Below, piece after piece: positions 5,236 through 41,715 of a DNA stretch of 64,000 bases. Positions within the stretch are counted from its first letter, which is position 1; the number at the start of each line of letters is the position of its first letter. Below the pieces are notes generated by a model. It was not told where the DNA came from and searched no databases. It saw only the letters and a program-made list of their open reading frames with translations. A program made the translations under genes and the position numbers. The DNA is taken from assembly GCA_022841915.1 (NCBI GenBank), contig JALHQN010000006.1:248001-312000 (forward strand). Reading direction: 5' to 3'. This DNA comes from Burkholderiales bacterium (GTDB lineage Bacteria; Pseudomonadota; Gammaproteobacteria; Burkholderiales; WYBJ01).

Positions 5236-6408
5236 CTACTCCTCGGTGTAACCCGTCTTGGAACGACGGTCGAGCCACCAGCCATACTGAACCGGCATGT
5301 CCCCGTATTGTTTGTCGTGCCCAAGAGCCCGCGCCGCATGTGCCGGCCAAAAAGGGTTGTAGAGCAGTTCGCGGCCGATGGCCACTAGATCCGCCTGCCC
5401 CTTGACCAGGATCTCTTCCGCCTGCCTGGGATGCACGATCAGGCCGACGGCCATCGTCATCACTGCCGCATCTTTACGCACACGCTCCGCGTACGGCACC
5501 TGGAATCCCAGCTTTGGCGCGATACGGCTTGCCGTGGGTGACCGAATCGAAATTCCGCTCGCCGAGCAGTCGATCACGTCGACACCCAGTGACTTCAACT
5601 CGCGGGCAAGAATCACGGTGTCATCGATCGTCCAACCGCCCTCGTCGACGGCAGAGACCCGGAAGAAGAGCGGCTTGTGCTGCGGCCACACCCTACGCAC
5701 GGCCTCGGTAACCTCGAGCGCGAATCGCATACGATTGCCGAGACTGCCGCCGTACCTATCTGCACGCTTGTTCGATGCGGGTGACAGAAACTCGTGGATG
5801 AGGTAGCCGTGCGCACCGTGAATCTCAAGAATCTCGAAGCCAGCCTGGTCGGCACGCATCGCGGCCTTGACCCAATTGCTCTGGACCTCATCGATATCCT
5901 GCTTGCTCATTTCGCGCGGAAGCGGCCAACCTTCGAGATACTCGACCGCACTCGGGCCGATGACTTCCCAGTGCTCCTGACCTTCGACCGGCACGCTGCG
6001 ATCCAGTGCGCCAAATCCATCCCAAGGCTTGTACGTCCCGGCCTTGCGCCCGGCATGATTGAGCTGAATCGACGGGGTTGCGCCCTGCTCCTTCAGGAAC
6101 TTAGCAAGCCGCTGCAGCGGTGCGATGTGCTCATCCTTCCAGATCCCCATGTCACCGACCGTGCCTAACCCTCGGCGCTCAATCTTGGTAGCTTCCGTAA
6201 AGACTGAACCTGCACCTCCCATCGCGAACTTTGCGAAATGCGCGAAGTGCCAATCAGTGAGGAATCCGTCGATCGACGAATACTGCGCCATCGGAGAGAC
6301 CACAATGCGATTGCGCAACTGAACCCCTCGTATTTCCAGAGGCTGGAAAAGCATCGCTTGCGTCTGACCGGCCGTAGAGGCTTGCGCCATGGTGATCGGA
6401 AGAGACAC
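5236..6408 (-). CDS. NADH:flavin oxidoreductase, old yellow enzyme family
   Basis: A 390-residue single-domain FMN-dependent ene-reductase of the YqjM/XenA type. The barrel is seen from LFQPLEIRGVQLRNRIVVSPM through the active-site motif HGAHGYLIHEFLSPASN and the adjacent DRYGGS, to a late VGLIVHPRQAEEIL and DLVAIGRELLYNP. There is no iron-sulfur or second flavin domain, unlike the protein at 20108-22156. These enzymes reduce activated double bonds of enones or enoates with NAD(P)H. It is the first gene of the minus-strand unit running to the window edge. An IclR-type operator candidate (6484-6506) lies 76 bp upstream of its start. An ATG six codons further in is an alternative start. Confidence 0.92.
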   Translation of the reverse strand: MSLPITMAQASTAGQTQAMLFQPLEIRGVQLRNRIVVSPMAQYSSIDGFLTDWHFAHFAKFAMGGAGSVFTEATKIERRGLGTVGDMGIWKDEHIAPLQRLAKFLKEQGATPSIQLNHAGRKAGTYKPWDGFGALDRSVPVEGQEHWEVIGPSAVEYLEGWPLPREMSKQDIDEVQSNWVKAAMRADQAGFEILEIHGAHGYLIHEFLSPASNKRADRYGGSLGNRMRFALEVTEAVRRVWPQHKPLFFRVSAVDEGGWTIDDTVILARELKSLGVDVIDCSASGISIRSPTASRIAPKLGFQVPYAERVRKDAAVMTMAVGLIVHPRQAEEILVKGQADLVAIGRELLYNPFWPAHAARALGHDKQYGDMPVQYGWWLDRRSKTGYTEE

Positions 6409-6483
6409 TACCGTGGACTCCTCGGGCCGAAATCGCCCACAAAACCGAGCAATGGCTGGGGCATCCTAAGATGCGCTAACTGC

Positions 6484-6506
6484 GTTCATTATACTGAACG
6501 CCATTC
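6484..6506 (-). promoter_or_regulatory. Operator candidate, triple half-site type (site A)
   Basis: On the plus strand the site reads GTTC-ATTATACT-GAAC-GCC-ATTC. The same half-site order and spacing recurs at 10485, 15488 and 17745. On the minus strand the 8-bp spacer contains TATAAT, so it could overlap the promoter -10 box of the flavin oxidoreductase gene that starts 76 bp downstream. The insertion sequence begins about 35 bp further upstream. I infer that the IclR protein encoded at 16891-17661 is the binder, because one site lies in front of its own gene. Confidence 0.6.
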
Positions 6507-6540
6507 ACTAACACGATACTCAGTCGATAAACGGGTGTCA

Positions 6541-7965
6541 ACATTCAGCCTCTTCCAATGGGGTATGAGCCTGAAGGAGGGTTCGTGTTTCCAACGGGGT
6601 ATGAGCCTGAAGCGGGGTTGTTGGGTCGATCATCACAGCGTGGTGATCGATATGAACGATACGAAACTCGTCACCCTCGAGCAGCTGCGGGGGTTCTTGG
6701 CCGGAGCGGCCGATCTGGGCCTGACGGCAGTGGCGGATCCAGCGGCCCGTTATGGCTTGATCAAGGGGGTGCTCAAGCGGTTCAAGTACCCCTTGCTGGG
6801 CAAAGCCGATCGTGGGGTGGTCCGACGCTACCTGCTTCGAGTCACCGGGTACTCGCGCCCTCAGCTCACACGCCTGACTGCGCAGTACCTGCGCAGTGGG
6901 CGCCTGGTGCGCCGCTACCGGGCTAACCCCAGCTCCTACACCCGCAAGTACACCCCGCAGGACGTCCTGCTGCTGGCCGAACTCGACAGCCTGCACGCCA
7001 GCCTGTCCGGCCCCGCGACCCGGGTGCTTCTGGAGCGGGCCTATCACCTCTTCGGCCAGCCAGCCTACACCCGCTTAGCCACCATCTCGGTGTCCCATCT
7101 GTACAACCTGCGCGCCCAGCCTCTGTACCAGCAGCAGCGCGTGCATTACAGCAAGACTCAAACACGGCCCAGCACCCTGGGTGTGCGCCGTGCGCCGGCG
7201 CCCGAAGGCCGGCCCGGGTTCATCCGCATCGACACGGTCCATCAGGGCGACCACGACGGGCGCAAGGGTCTGTATCACATCAATGCCGTCGACATCATCA
7301 CCCAGTGGGAATTGGTCGCCACCTGCGAGCGCATCAGCGAGGCTTACCTCCTACCAGTGATCGGCGAACTGCTCGCCGGCTTCCCGTTCGAGGTCCTGGG
7401 CTTTCACTCCGACGGTGGCAGTGAGTACGTCAATCACGACGTGGCCAAGCTGTTGGAGAAGTTACGCGTGGAGTTCACCCGCTCGCGACCACGCCATACC
7501 AACGACAATGCTCTGGCAGAGAGCAAGAACGCCAGTGTGATCCGCAAGCAGTTCGGCTACGCCCATATCCCTCAGCATCACGCAGCCGACATGAACACCT
7601 TCTGTCGCGAATTCCTCAATCCCTACATCAACTACCACCGGCCATGCTACTTCGCCGTCGACGACATCGATGCCAAGGGCAAGGTGCGTAAGCGCTACCC
7701 GCGCGAGCTGATCATGACGCCGTTCGACAAGCTCAGAACCATGCCATCCCAGAACGTGAATCTAAAACCCGGAATCACCCTCGACACCCTGGCCCAGGAG
7801 GCCCACCAAATGACCGATAATCAGGCCGCGAAGGCGCTCACCGACGCCCGCTCAAAGCTCTTCCGATCCATCCACCGTCGATCCAGAACCGCCGCCTAAG
7901 GTCTACCCCATCCAGCCCGCTTCAGGCTCATTCCACTATTGGAAAAGACTCATTCCCTGAGAAGC
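6541..7965 (+). mobile_element. Insertion sequence with DD35E transposase (boundaries approximate)
   Basis: The transposase gene is flanked by related inverted ends. The left end carries two near-identical copies of a 24-bp element, TTCCAAYGGGGTATGAGCCTGAAG, at 6553-6576 and 6589-6612. The right end carries an inverted relative at 7920-7944 (reading TTCCAATAGTGGAATGAGCC on the minus strand) and part of another copy up to about 7960. The outer ends are less well matched, so the exact termini and any target duplication were not resolved. The element lies upstream of operator site A and interrupts no recognisable gene. Confidence 0.7.
6652..7899 (+). CDS. DD35E integrase-core (rve) transposase
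   Basis: A 415-residue transposase. The N-terminal half contains a helix-turn-helix-like segment (residues about 55-85). The catalytic core follows, with Asp194 in GFIRIDTVHQGD, Asp254 in GFHSDGGSEYV and Glu290 in NDNALAESKN, giving exact D-x35-E spacing. The ATG chosen opens MNDTKLVTLEQLRG. The frame is open farther upstream through the terminal repeats, so a start at 6565 cannot be excluded. The protein resembles ISNCY/IS481-like elements that carry an integrase core without an orfA partner, but I could not assign a named group. The frame is intact and the element may be active. Confidence 0.85.
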   Translation: MNDTKLVTLEQLRGFLAGAADLGLTAVADPAARYGLIKGVLKRFKYPLLGKADRGVVRRYLLRVTGYSRPQLTRLTAQYLRSGRLVRRYRANPSSYTRKYTPQDVLLLAELDSLHASLSGPATRVLLERAYHLFGQPAYTRLATISVSHLYNLRAQPLYQQQRVHYSKTQTRPSTLGVRRAPAPEGRPGFIRIDTVHQGDHDGRKGLYHINAVDIITQWELVATCERISEAYLLPVIGELLAGFPFEVLGFHSDGGSEYVNHDVAKLLEKLRVEFTRSRPRHTNDNALAESKNASVIRKQFGYAHIPQHHAADMNTFCREFLNPYINYHRPCYFAVDDIDAKGKVRKRYPRELIMTPFDKLRTMPSQNVNLKPGITLDTLAQEAHQMTDNQAAKALTDARSKLFRSIHRRSRTAA

Positions 7966-8805: not shown

Positions 8806-10029
8806 TCAGCACGCTCCTATCGCTTTTGCGGCGATCAGGTCGTCGATTTCGCAAGTACTGAAGCCGGCCGCACTCAAGACGTCTCGCGTGTCCTGGCCGA
8901 GCTGCGGCGCGGGACCAGGAGCGGGTGGCGGCGTTGCAGACCAGTTGGCAGGCGCTCGGATCGAGAGTATCTCGCCTTCCGAGGGGTGCATCTGCGTGCT
9001 CAGGAAGCCGACGGACCTCAAATGGGGATCACCCATCAGACTCTCGAGCGTGTTGAGTGGAGCGGCAGGCACATCGTGCGCATGCAGAATCTCGATCCAT
9101 TCCGAAGTGGTCTTTGTCAAGAAGACCGCATCGACCTCCCTGTAGAAAGCCGCAAGATTCGCGTTGCGCTGGCCGCGGCTTCGAAACCGTTCGTCGCTTT
9201 TCAGTGCACTCAGATGCAGCGCATCGAGCATTCGTGCGCACTGCGCGTCAGTACCGATCCAGAAGCAAATATGGCCATCTTTGGTTCGAGAAGGCTGGCG
9301 CTCGAATATCCTCGTCGCACCCATGTCCCCCACGGGAGGCACGAAGGTATGGCCCCACAAATGCTCGGAGAGAACGAAGTCCGCCATGGTCTCGAACATG
9401 GGCAACTCCACCGACTGCCCCTGCCCCGTACGCTCGCGGCAAAGGAGGGCGGCCAGGATGGTCTGTGCGAACACCATGCCGCAGACTCTGTCCGAGAGAT
9501 TGAAAGGTGCGTAGTTCGCTTCTCCCGTGAGCCGTGCATTCAGTGACGGTACTGCGGACAGCCCTTGAATCGTGTCATCGTAGGCCGGCCACTCAGCGTA
9601 AGGCCCCTGCTCCCCAAACCCCACGGCGCTGCAGTAGACGATATCGGGCTTCACACGCGCGATGTCCTGATAGTCCAACCCTAGCCTGGACATCGCCTGC
9701 CTGCGACTATTGTGGATTAGGGCGTCTGCGCGAGCGCACAGCCTCAAGACGACCTCTCGTCCCTTCGCGGTCTTCAAGTCGACGACAATGCTCCGCTTCC
9801 CGCGGTTGACATGCAGATGCTGCGAGGTCATACCCGGATGGCGTGCAGGCCCCATCGTTCTGCGGGCATCTCCGACCGGCGGCTCGATCTTCAGCACTTC
9901 AGCACCGAGATCGGCGAGTACCTGAGTCGCATATGGACCCAACAGCATCTGGGTCAAGTCTATGATCCGCATTCCTGCCAGAGGACCGCCTCTCGGAGCC
10001 GTGGCGCGAATCTCCCCCTGGGTGCTCAT
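8806..10029 (-). CDS. Family III CoA-transferase (CaiB/BaiF), Glu at the nucleophile position
   Basis: A 407-residue family III CoA-transferase that would move CoA from a donor thioester to a carboxylic acid. The N-terminal Rossmann part reads MRIIDLTQMLLGPYATQVLADLGAEVLKIE (residues 20-49). The usual catalytic Asp is replaced by Glu213 in LPMFETMADF, as in two paralogues here (18822 and 37488). The ATG overlaps the TGA of the upstream truncated Bug gene by 4 bp (ATGA), which fixes the start and suggests coupling. A longer in-frame extension upstream is rejected, as it only overlaps that gene. Operator site D lies upstream of the pair. Confidence 0.92.
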   Translation of the reverse strand: MSTQGEIRATAPRGGPLAGMRIIDLTQMLLGPYATQVLADLGAEVLKIEPPVGDARRTMGPARHPGMTSQHLHVNRGKRSIVVDLKTAKGREVVLRLCARADALIHNSRRQAMSRLGLDYQDIARVKPDIVYCSAVGFGEQGPYAEWPAYDDTIQGLSAVPSLNARLTGEANYAPFNLSDRVCGMVFAQTILAALLCRERTGQGQSVELPMFETMADFVLSEHLWGHTFVPPVGDMGATRIFERQPSRTKDGHICFWIGTDAQCARMLDALHLSALKSDERFRSRGQRNANLAAFYREVDAVFLTKTTSEWIEILHAHDVPAAPLNTLESLMGDPHLRSVGFLSTQMHPSEGEILSIRAPANWSATPPPAPGPAPQLGQDTRDVLSAAGFSTCEIDDLIAAKAIGAC

Positions 10030-10295
10030 TGTCGCGCCATGCCCGCAATCTTGACGAGGTTGTCCCATTTCATGGTCTCGGCTTGAATGAACGCAGCGAA
10101 CGCCTCTGGCATGAAGCTCGCTGATTCTGCGCCTTCGAGTGACAACCGATCCGGGAGTGCAGGCACATGCATTGCCTTGGTTGTTTCCAGGAGGCGTGTG
10201 GGGCGTGGGGGATAACTGTGGGCTATGGCGGCTGTCGCTGCCATAGTGGCGAGGTACATGGCAGCGCACCACACTCTGGGCATCCACTGGGACAT
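10026..10295 (-). pseudogene. Internally deleted Bug/TctC gene (signal peptide joined to C-terminal helix)
   Basis: An 89-residue frame, preceded by GGGAG, that begins with a signal-peptide-like stretch (MPRVWCAAMYLATMAATAAIA). It continues with HSYPPRPTRL, the segment that normally follows the signal in Bug proteins. It then jumps to LEGAESASFMPEAFAAFIQAETMKWDNLVKIAGMARQ, which matches the C-terminal helix of Bug proteins. About 230 central residues, including the whole ligand-binding region, are missing, yet the frame is kept. The stop overlaps the next gene start as ATGA, so translation may still matter for coupling. It cannot bind ligand as the family does. Confidence 0.75.
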
Positions 10296-11054
10296 GGTCG
10301 GAAGCTCCCGTTGCGCTGCAAGAACCATCGGCTTGGCCTATCGTTCGGGCATCTGGACAAAAGGACTGCAATGTCGCAACCGTCGTGCGGGGGCCCGTGT
10401 CGGTTACGGCGGCTGCGCCGGACGTCTGCGAATGCCGCGCAAGGTCGCCCGGTACCCTTTCCTCACTGACCTATTATTACCGCAGTTCGGCATTTTGAAC
10501 AGCGTTCACCCTTTGGGCCGCGACTCAGTCCGACTCAACCCAAAAGTGCGAGCACCGAGAGTTACGGCGGTTAGTGTGATGACGAACCCACGCGCCGAAT
10601 GATCGAGCTGACGTTCAATCGTCTATGCGAATGCCGAGACCATGTACGGTTCGTGCGAGACTCGGCGGAATGGGCTTCCGTCTCCCTGAGCGACTGAGCG
10701 TCAGGACCTGAAAAGCGTATCCAAAGGCCTGCAGACCTTGCGTGGTGTGCCGTGAGATGCAGCCGGCACGCTCCGGTAGACCGAGCGCGAAACCTGCGTT
10801 CGCCGCACTGCTCGGGGTCAACGTGTGCGCAATGCCACTGGCCGAGCTGACCTCACATCACGACACGAACTCTCGGGCGTTCGACGCCACGGCCAGTCAC
10901 TCATCTCAGAGCGGCGCCTGCCCCTCAATAACGCTACGGGGATCGCTCCACTGATGAGACTTGAGCGCTGGCGCAGGCGCGCACGCGATTGCACGGCCCA
11001 TCGAATCGGCGTACGCGCACTGCGCTCGCAGCAAAACTTGTCCGAAGCCCCAGG
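10296..11054. other. Gene-free stretch with one operator candidate
   Basis: About 760 bp with no supportable gene on either strand; the open frames look like GC-rich noise. It contains operator site D (10485-10507), and on the minus strand an AT-rich TAATAAT about 25 bp downstream of it that could be a -10 box. Both would serve the truncated Bug gene and CoA-transferase unit. Confidence 0.5.
10485..10507 (-). promoter_or_regulatory. Operator candidate, triple half-site type (site D)
   Basis: The plus strand reads GTTC-GGCATTTT-GAAC-AGC-GTTC, with the same half-sites and spacing as sites A, B and C. It lies 190 bp upstream of the truncated Bug gene that heads the CoA-transferase unit. Unlike sites A and B, its spacer has no TATAAT on the minus strand. 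Confidence 0.55.
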
Positions 11055-40541: not shown

Positions 40542-41715
40542 GGAAGGTCTGAACAAGTCCACCGATTCTGCCGTGGCGCGTTGAATCGGTCGGAGGGTGC
40601 GAATCGATGAAACAGATGAGTTTTTCGGACGCGGAGTACGCGGGCAAGCGCAAGAAGACCCGGCGCGAGTTGTTCCTCGAAGAGATGGAACTGGTGGTGC
40701 CGTGGAAGGCGCTGCTCAAGGTGATCGAGCCGTTCTACCCCGTGGCCGGGAACGGCCGCAGGCCGTATCCGCTGGCGACGATGCTGCGCGTGCACCTGAT
40801 GCAGAACTGGTTCGCGCTGAGCGACCCGGCGATGGAGGAGGCACTGTACGAGATCGCCTCGTTGCGCATCTTTGCCGGGCTGGACTTGCGCGAGGCGATC
40901 CCCGACGAGACGACGATCCTGAACTTCCGGCACTTGCTGGAGGAGTACGACCTGGCCGAGGAGATACTCAAGCAGGTCAATGCGCACCTCACGCGCAAGG
41001 GCCTGCTGCTCAAGCGCGGCAGCATCGTCGATGCGAAGATCATTGCGGCGCCCAGTTCGACCAAGAACGCGCAGGGTGAGCGCGATCCCGAAATGCATCA
41101 GGCGAAGAAGGGTAACCAGTGGCATTTTGGGATGAAGGCGCACATCGGCGTGGACGCCGACAGCGGCCTGGTTCATACCGTCACCACCACACCTGCCAAT
41201 GAGTCCGACGTGGCGCAGGTCGCCGATCTGCTGCATGGCAAGGAAGAGCACGTCTATGCTGACTCGGGCTATCGTGGCGCCGCGAGCCGAGTGGATCGCG
41301 AAGACTTGCAATGGCACATCGCGGCGCGGCCCAGCGACATCGCCAAGATGGCTGAGAGCAGAGCCAAAGCGCGAGTGCAGAAGCAAGAGCACCGCAAGGC
41401 CAGCGTGCGCGCGAAAGTGGAGCATCCGTTTCGCGTCATCAAGCGCCAGTTCGGTCTGATGAAGGTGCGCTTTCGCGGGCTCGACAAGAACACGGCCCAT
41501 CTGCTGACGCTGTTCGCGCTGTCGAATCTGTGGATGGCGCGAAAGAAGCTCATGGCCATGATGGGAGCAGTCCGTCCGCAGGCGGCGTAAAGACGAACAA
41601 ATATGTCGAAAACTCACTTCCGCGGACTCGCGTAGATGCCTTTGCCGGAACCTTCCAGCTCACGCGCATTCAACGGGTTCATGGCGGCTGCGTTTTTGAC
41701 TTGTTCAGACCTTCC
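40542..41715 (+). mobile_element. IS5-family insertion sequence with perfect ends
   Basis: The element has perfect 18-bp inverted ends (GGAAGGTCTGAACAAGTC) and is flanked by CTAG on both sides (40538-40541 and 41716-41719), consistent with the 4-bp CTAR target duplication of IS5-family elements. At 1174 bp with one intact transposase it should be functional. It lies immediately after the crotonase stop. Confidence 0.92.
40607..41590 (+). CDS. IS5-family transposase
   Basis: A 327-residue DDE transposase of the IS5 family. The N-terminal part has PYPLATMLRVHLMQNWFALSDPAMEEALYEI, the usual DUF772 helix segment, then an ILNFRHLLEEYDLAE segment. The catalytic part has VDAKIIAAPSS and HADSGY-like VYADSGYRGAASR. 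The C-terminus carries VRAKVEHPFRVIKRQFGLMKVRFRGL with the last acidic residue (Glu). The start ATG is followed by KQMSFSDAEYAGKRKKTRRE, typical of this group. The frame is intact. Confidence 0.95.
   Translation: MKQMSFSDAEYAGKRKKTRRELFLEEMELVVPWKALLKVIEPFYPVAGNGRRPYPLATMLRVHLMQNWFALSDPAMEEALYEIASLRIFAGLDLREAIPDETTILNFRHLLEEYDLAEEILKQVNAHLTRKGLLLKRGSIVDAKIIAAPSSTKNAQGERDPEMHQAKKGNQWHFGMKAHIGVDADSGLVHTVTTTPANESDVAQVADLLHGKEEHVYADSGYRGAASRVDREDLQWHIAARPSDIAKMAESRAKARVQKQEHRKASVRAKVEHPFRVIKRQFGLMKVRFRGLDKNTAHLLTLFALSNLWMARKKLMAMMGAVRPQAA

Follow-up and report, generated by a model that had tools for sequence, protein, structure and literature searches.

A short reading frame overlapping a CoA-transferase gene in a Burkholderiales genome is very probably the remnant of a Bug gene

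A two-part reading frame in front of a CoA-transferase gene

The DNA analyzed here, referred to below as the window, is a stretch of 64,000 nucleotides from a Burkholderiales bacterium (contig JALHQN010000006.1, positions 248,001 to 312,000). On its minus strand, an ATG at 10295 and a TGA at 10026 bound a reading frame of 89 codons, with an alternative in-frame ATG at 10328 that gives a 100-aa form. The frame ends in an ATGA, in which its stop codon overlaps the start of an intact CoA-transferase gene. The features of the locus are as follows.

8806..10029, minus strand: family III CoA-transferase, intact, 407 aa (Pfam CoA_transf_3, E = 4.2e-101; constraint by codon position)
10026..10029, minus strand: ATGA, the stop (TGA) of the small frame overlapping the CoA-transferase start (ATG at 10029)
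10026..10295, minus strand: small open reading frame, 89 aa, very probably the remnant of a Bug/TctC gene from which an in-frame deletion removed about 235 codons (two-piece profile match, orthologous Bug genes)
10029..10187, minus strand: C-terminal piece, the last 53 residues of Bug (C-terminal sub-profile, 48 bits)
10188..10295, minus strand: N-terminal piece, signal peptide and the YPxRPxRLL start of mature Bug
10296..11054, no strand: upstream stretch of 759 bp between the small frame and a gene that we take to be enoyl-CoA hydratase-like

The frame of the CoA-transferase is itself open for 114 codons 5' of the conserved start (8806..10371, minus strand), crossing the small frame in a different register, so an automatic gene caller may annotate a 521-aa protein there. 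Elsewhere in the window, frames at 6238..7899 and 40607..41590, both on the plus strand, resemble transposases, presumably one integrase-like and one IS5-like.

As a query on its own, the small frame matched no Pfam family at E ≤ 10. A Bug profile built from 96 rows (95 collected Bug rows, with the Bug of locus L061 entered once more) splits it in two: residues 19 to 47 of the 100-aa form match model positions 8 to 36, and residues 48 to 99 match positions 273 to 324. The two pieces abut at residues 47/48, at about 10187/10188 in the window; each is gap-free inside, and model positions 37 to 272, some 236 in all, are unmatched. The N-terminal piece scored 18 bits against an N-terminal sub-profile, compared to 13 for the best of 3000 shuffles. 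Both pieces also align ungapped to the L061 Bug, the closest full-length protein, the N-terminal one to residues 11 to 35 and the C-terminal one to residues 271 to 323 with 27 of 53 residues identical. Residues 36 to 270 are missing, i.e., 235 residues or 705 bp, which is close to the 230 central residues that the initial annotation had described as lost between a Bug signal peptide and a Bug C-terminal part; the intact frame and ATGA overlap it described are likewise those given above. We take the missing residues to carry the ligand-binding lobes seen in solved Bug structures.

The small frame thus shares with the Bug/TctC family (PF03401, the solute-binding proteins of tripartite tricarboxylate transporters) the signal peptide, the YPxRPxRL start of the mature protein and the C-terminal tail, in that order, and differs in the absence of about 235 residues and of any Pfam match. 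With model positions 37 to 272 gone, it is not a full-length two-lobed PF03401 domain above the Pfam gathering score; its membership is by descent from a Bug gene, as indicated by the two pieces in order and by its orthologous position.

Genome searches with the small protein often placed it almost entire on Bug C-termini, and several matches align its residues 7 to 98 inside the C-terminal ends of full-length Bug proteins, with ELPT and PRP..TRL resemblances, as if the whole frame were a 5'-truncated C-terminal third of Bug and the look of a signal peptide had arisen by chance. These alignments, half plausible as they are, require several gaps, and a profile of the region preceding the C-terminus gave only 0.5 bits, short of the 5.9 that marks the 1% level among shuffles, where the N-terminal profile gave 18. 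On this profile test we rejected a C-terminal third, which we consider very improbable, in favor of the two-piece composition.

Orthologous loci and constraint on the remaining codons

The closest CoA-transferases are those of genomes G399 (L061, MAG RYN_582; 70% identity), G478 (67%) and G403 (65 to 66%). They were found by searching the order (399 genomes), the family of the orthologues (74 genomes), sets of 60 relatives and of 59 relatives of G399 and, in a single scan, genome contigs. Together with the CoA-transferase of the window they make up a single clade (SH-aLRT 100), in a tree from which one duplicate locus, L062 (same contig as L032), was left out. A Bug gene lies directly upstream of the CoA-transferase, in the same direction, in all three loci, with the Bug stop and the CoA-transferase start close together, so the enzyme gene is the partner of a Bug gene in each. 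The initial annotation had proposed looking there for a full-length Bug. Two are complete, that of G399 (323 aa) and that of G403, which over 320 aa shares 76% identity with the G399 protein, providing intact homologues at the place of the small frame, and the third (G478) is represented by its last 94 residues because the contig begins there. In G399 the small frame best matches the Bug of the orthologous locus, at 1.2e-10 against 3.2e-9 for the next, so the case for orthology draws on position in addition to a modest advantage in score. The occurrence of Bug in three of three orthologous loci points to a full-length Bug gene as the ancestral state and to an in-frame deletion in the window, one of the two readings offered in the initial annotation, the other being a retained leader that couples translation.

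By blastn, the 759 bp upstream of the small frame matched nothing in the orthologous loci of G399 and G403, where the gene upstream of Bug is presumably MmgE/PrpD-like. We considered a decayed copy of that gene and rejected it on this result and because the stretch has no long open frame in that direction. The stretch also had no sigma-70 promoter match and no Rfam family match; it has two terminator-like sites, compared to 0.6 expected.

No repeat was found at the deletion junction, and we set aside repeat-mediated deletion on that ground, noting that the ends are not exactly comparable. Among the genomes searched, no close relative carries an undeleted Bug copy at this place, so neither the date of the deletion nor its exact ends can be fixed. 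Three other genomes of the same genus have no orthologous CoA-transferase; their best matches reach 47 to 55%, and the congeners with the best of these fall in a separate clade of the CoA-transferase tree.

If the deletion had left something useful, the two ends of Bug might have become a small exported protein under selection, and the intact start, signal-peptide-like stretch and frame would all be in keeping with that. Conservation of the same small gene in close relatives, which the initial annotation had named as evidence against a deletion remnant, was not seen, the three congeners having no orthologous CoA-transferase. A second small gene of this make-up was likewise absent at E ≤ 1e-9 from the 399 genomes of the order (up to 12 candidates scored per genome) and from the 74 genomes of the orthologues' family (up to 67 scored), where two matches in short frames proved to be contig-edge pieces; there was no match among plasmid records. 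With no conserved copies found, and with amino acids changing faster than in the neighboring gene, as described next, we consider a selected small protein very improbable.

Rates were compared over the 53 shared C-terminal codons in four sequences. Over these codons the window is 49 to 51% identical to its three relatives, which are 68 to 79% identical among themselves, whereas for the CoA-transferase the corresponding values are 65 to 69% and 70 to 72%. We then counted sites conserved in the other three genomes and changed in the window only. Such changes are in excess in the small frame at codon position 2 (9 of 40 sites, compared to 20 of 304 in the CoA-transferase; Fisher p = 0.003), at positions 1 and 2 together (18/77 versus 63/579; p = 0.005) and in amino acids (9/32 versus 27/246; p = 0.012), the codon-position and amino-acid tests not being independent. 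Position 3 gave 11/19 versus 52/122 (p = 0.23). Pooled, the other three genomes had no excess in amino acids (4/73 versus 41/698; p = 1.0) or at position 2 (5/98 versus 43/895). The excess at position 2 and in amino acids, relative to the neighbor and in a small sample, indicates that the small frame lost constraint and the neighbor kept it. Counting against this is that the CoA-transferase, too, has evolved somewhat fast on the lineage of the window (share of unique amino acids 0.11, compared to 0.04 to 0.08).

This relaxation also bears on whether the middle of an intact Bug was simply dropped in assembly. A genome in 66 contigs with at least 150 Bug matches is a setting in which misassembly can occur, but relaxed constraint in the C-terminal piece is unexpected for an intact gene and argues against an artefact, as does the lack of a repeat at the junction, and we regard an assembly error as highly unlikely.

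What counts against a deletion remnant is that the frame is open, with its start, a moderate ribosome site and its stop all intact. In simulation, however, 54% of copies were still open after 20 random substitutions and 30% after 40, so that an open frame alone needs no selection, and by chance one deletion in three preserves the frame. We are confident that the frame is best read as having lost its function: it would be a Bug gene (TctC-family extracytoplasmic solute receptor) that lost some 235 internal codons in frame, after which constraint at the protein level would have relaxed. Its translated product would be an exported peptide of some 60 residues, lacking the ligand-binding lobes and hence a binding function, and the frame and ATGA may persist merely through incomplete decay.

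Ribosome sites and possible coupling to the CoA-transferase

The ribosome site that the initial annotation had called intact is present and of moderate strength. At the start of the remnant (ATG 10295), the predicted duplex with the anti-Shine-Dalgarno sequence is -6.6 kcal/mol, about the level reached by the best 10% of random positions (-6.5). At the CoA-transferase start the value is -3.5 kcal/mol, little different from the median of random positions (-3.0), and no Shine-Dalgarno sequence stands out above background. Given this weak start and the stronger one of the remnant, termination-reinitiation is a sensible route for translating the enzyme. The overlap is of a known kind. In PMC6728339, strict coupling was reported for 13 of 14 overlapping gene pairs tested, and the remnant shares with the ATGA termination-reinitiation overlaps described there the exact ATGA and a downstream start that has no clear Shine-Dalgarno sequence. 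It differs in that the gene on the upstream side is broken and in that any coupling is a prediction from sequence.

These features raise the possibility, which we hold to be unlikely, that the peptide is useless and its translation is kept since ribosomes finishing at the ATGA restart on the CoA-transferase. Such a leader would be compatible with a deletion and would add a function to the remnant. Two of the three orthologous CoA-transferase starts are also weak (-3.4 and -2.2 kcal/mol), so coupling to a full-length Bug may be ancestral, but that of G478 has a good site (-6.9). One of the two shifted frames of the remnant would stop 43 nt before the CoA-transferase start codon; the other coincides with the CoA-transferase frame and is open all the way into the gene, so that some frame changes would leave expression possible and any constraint on the frame would be partial. 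Incomplete decay accounts for the same facts. That the stub, an export signal and a tail, is retained as a translated leader setting the dose of CoA-transferase through the ATGA is accordingly put forward only as a doubtful proposal.

The probable remnant among the Bug copies of the genome

PF03401 matches number at least 150 in this genome, where 150 of the 386 candidates were scored, and the small protein searched against its own genome likewise gave 150 matches scored of 304 candidates. Among the matches listed, four lie in open frames of fewer than 250 aa: the remnant and those designated C2 (229 aa), C10 (238 aa, at a contig end) and C43 (214 aa). C43 (L181, 25-1077) is a full-length Bug but for one in-frame stop near model position 111. 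In C2 (L149, minus strand), the last 139 residues of the 229-aa frame are a Bug C-terminus and the first 89 are unmatched to the Bug profile. Both are incomplete members of the same family in the same genome, like the remnant, but C43 is broken by a single stop and C2 lacks its N-terminal part. We also considered, and rejected, that a similar full-length Bug at another place in the genome had replaced the lost one, as the best match to the L061 Bug among those listed is 47% identical. Such broken copies are to be expected when a gene family is large. In Bordetella, expansions of Bug genes that include orphan members have been described (PMC5812351, in whose main text neither "pseudogene" nor "CoA-transferase" occurs).

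The remnant is ordinary in a genome with so many Bug matches and other broken copies, and unless it still helps ribosomes to reach the gene downstream, it has the appearance of a common gene in decay. It carries mainly a caution for annotation, in that a short reading frame with a signal peptide, a ribosome site and an exact ATGA overlap may be no more than what is left after a gene has been deleted. Should the remnant indeed serve as a leader, it would mean that operon coupling can hold a broken frame open after the protein itself is gone.
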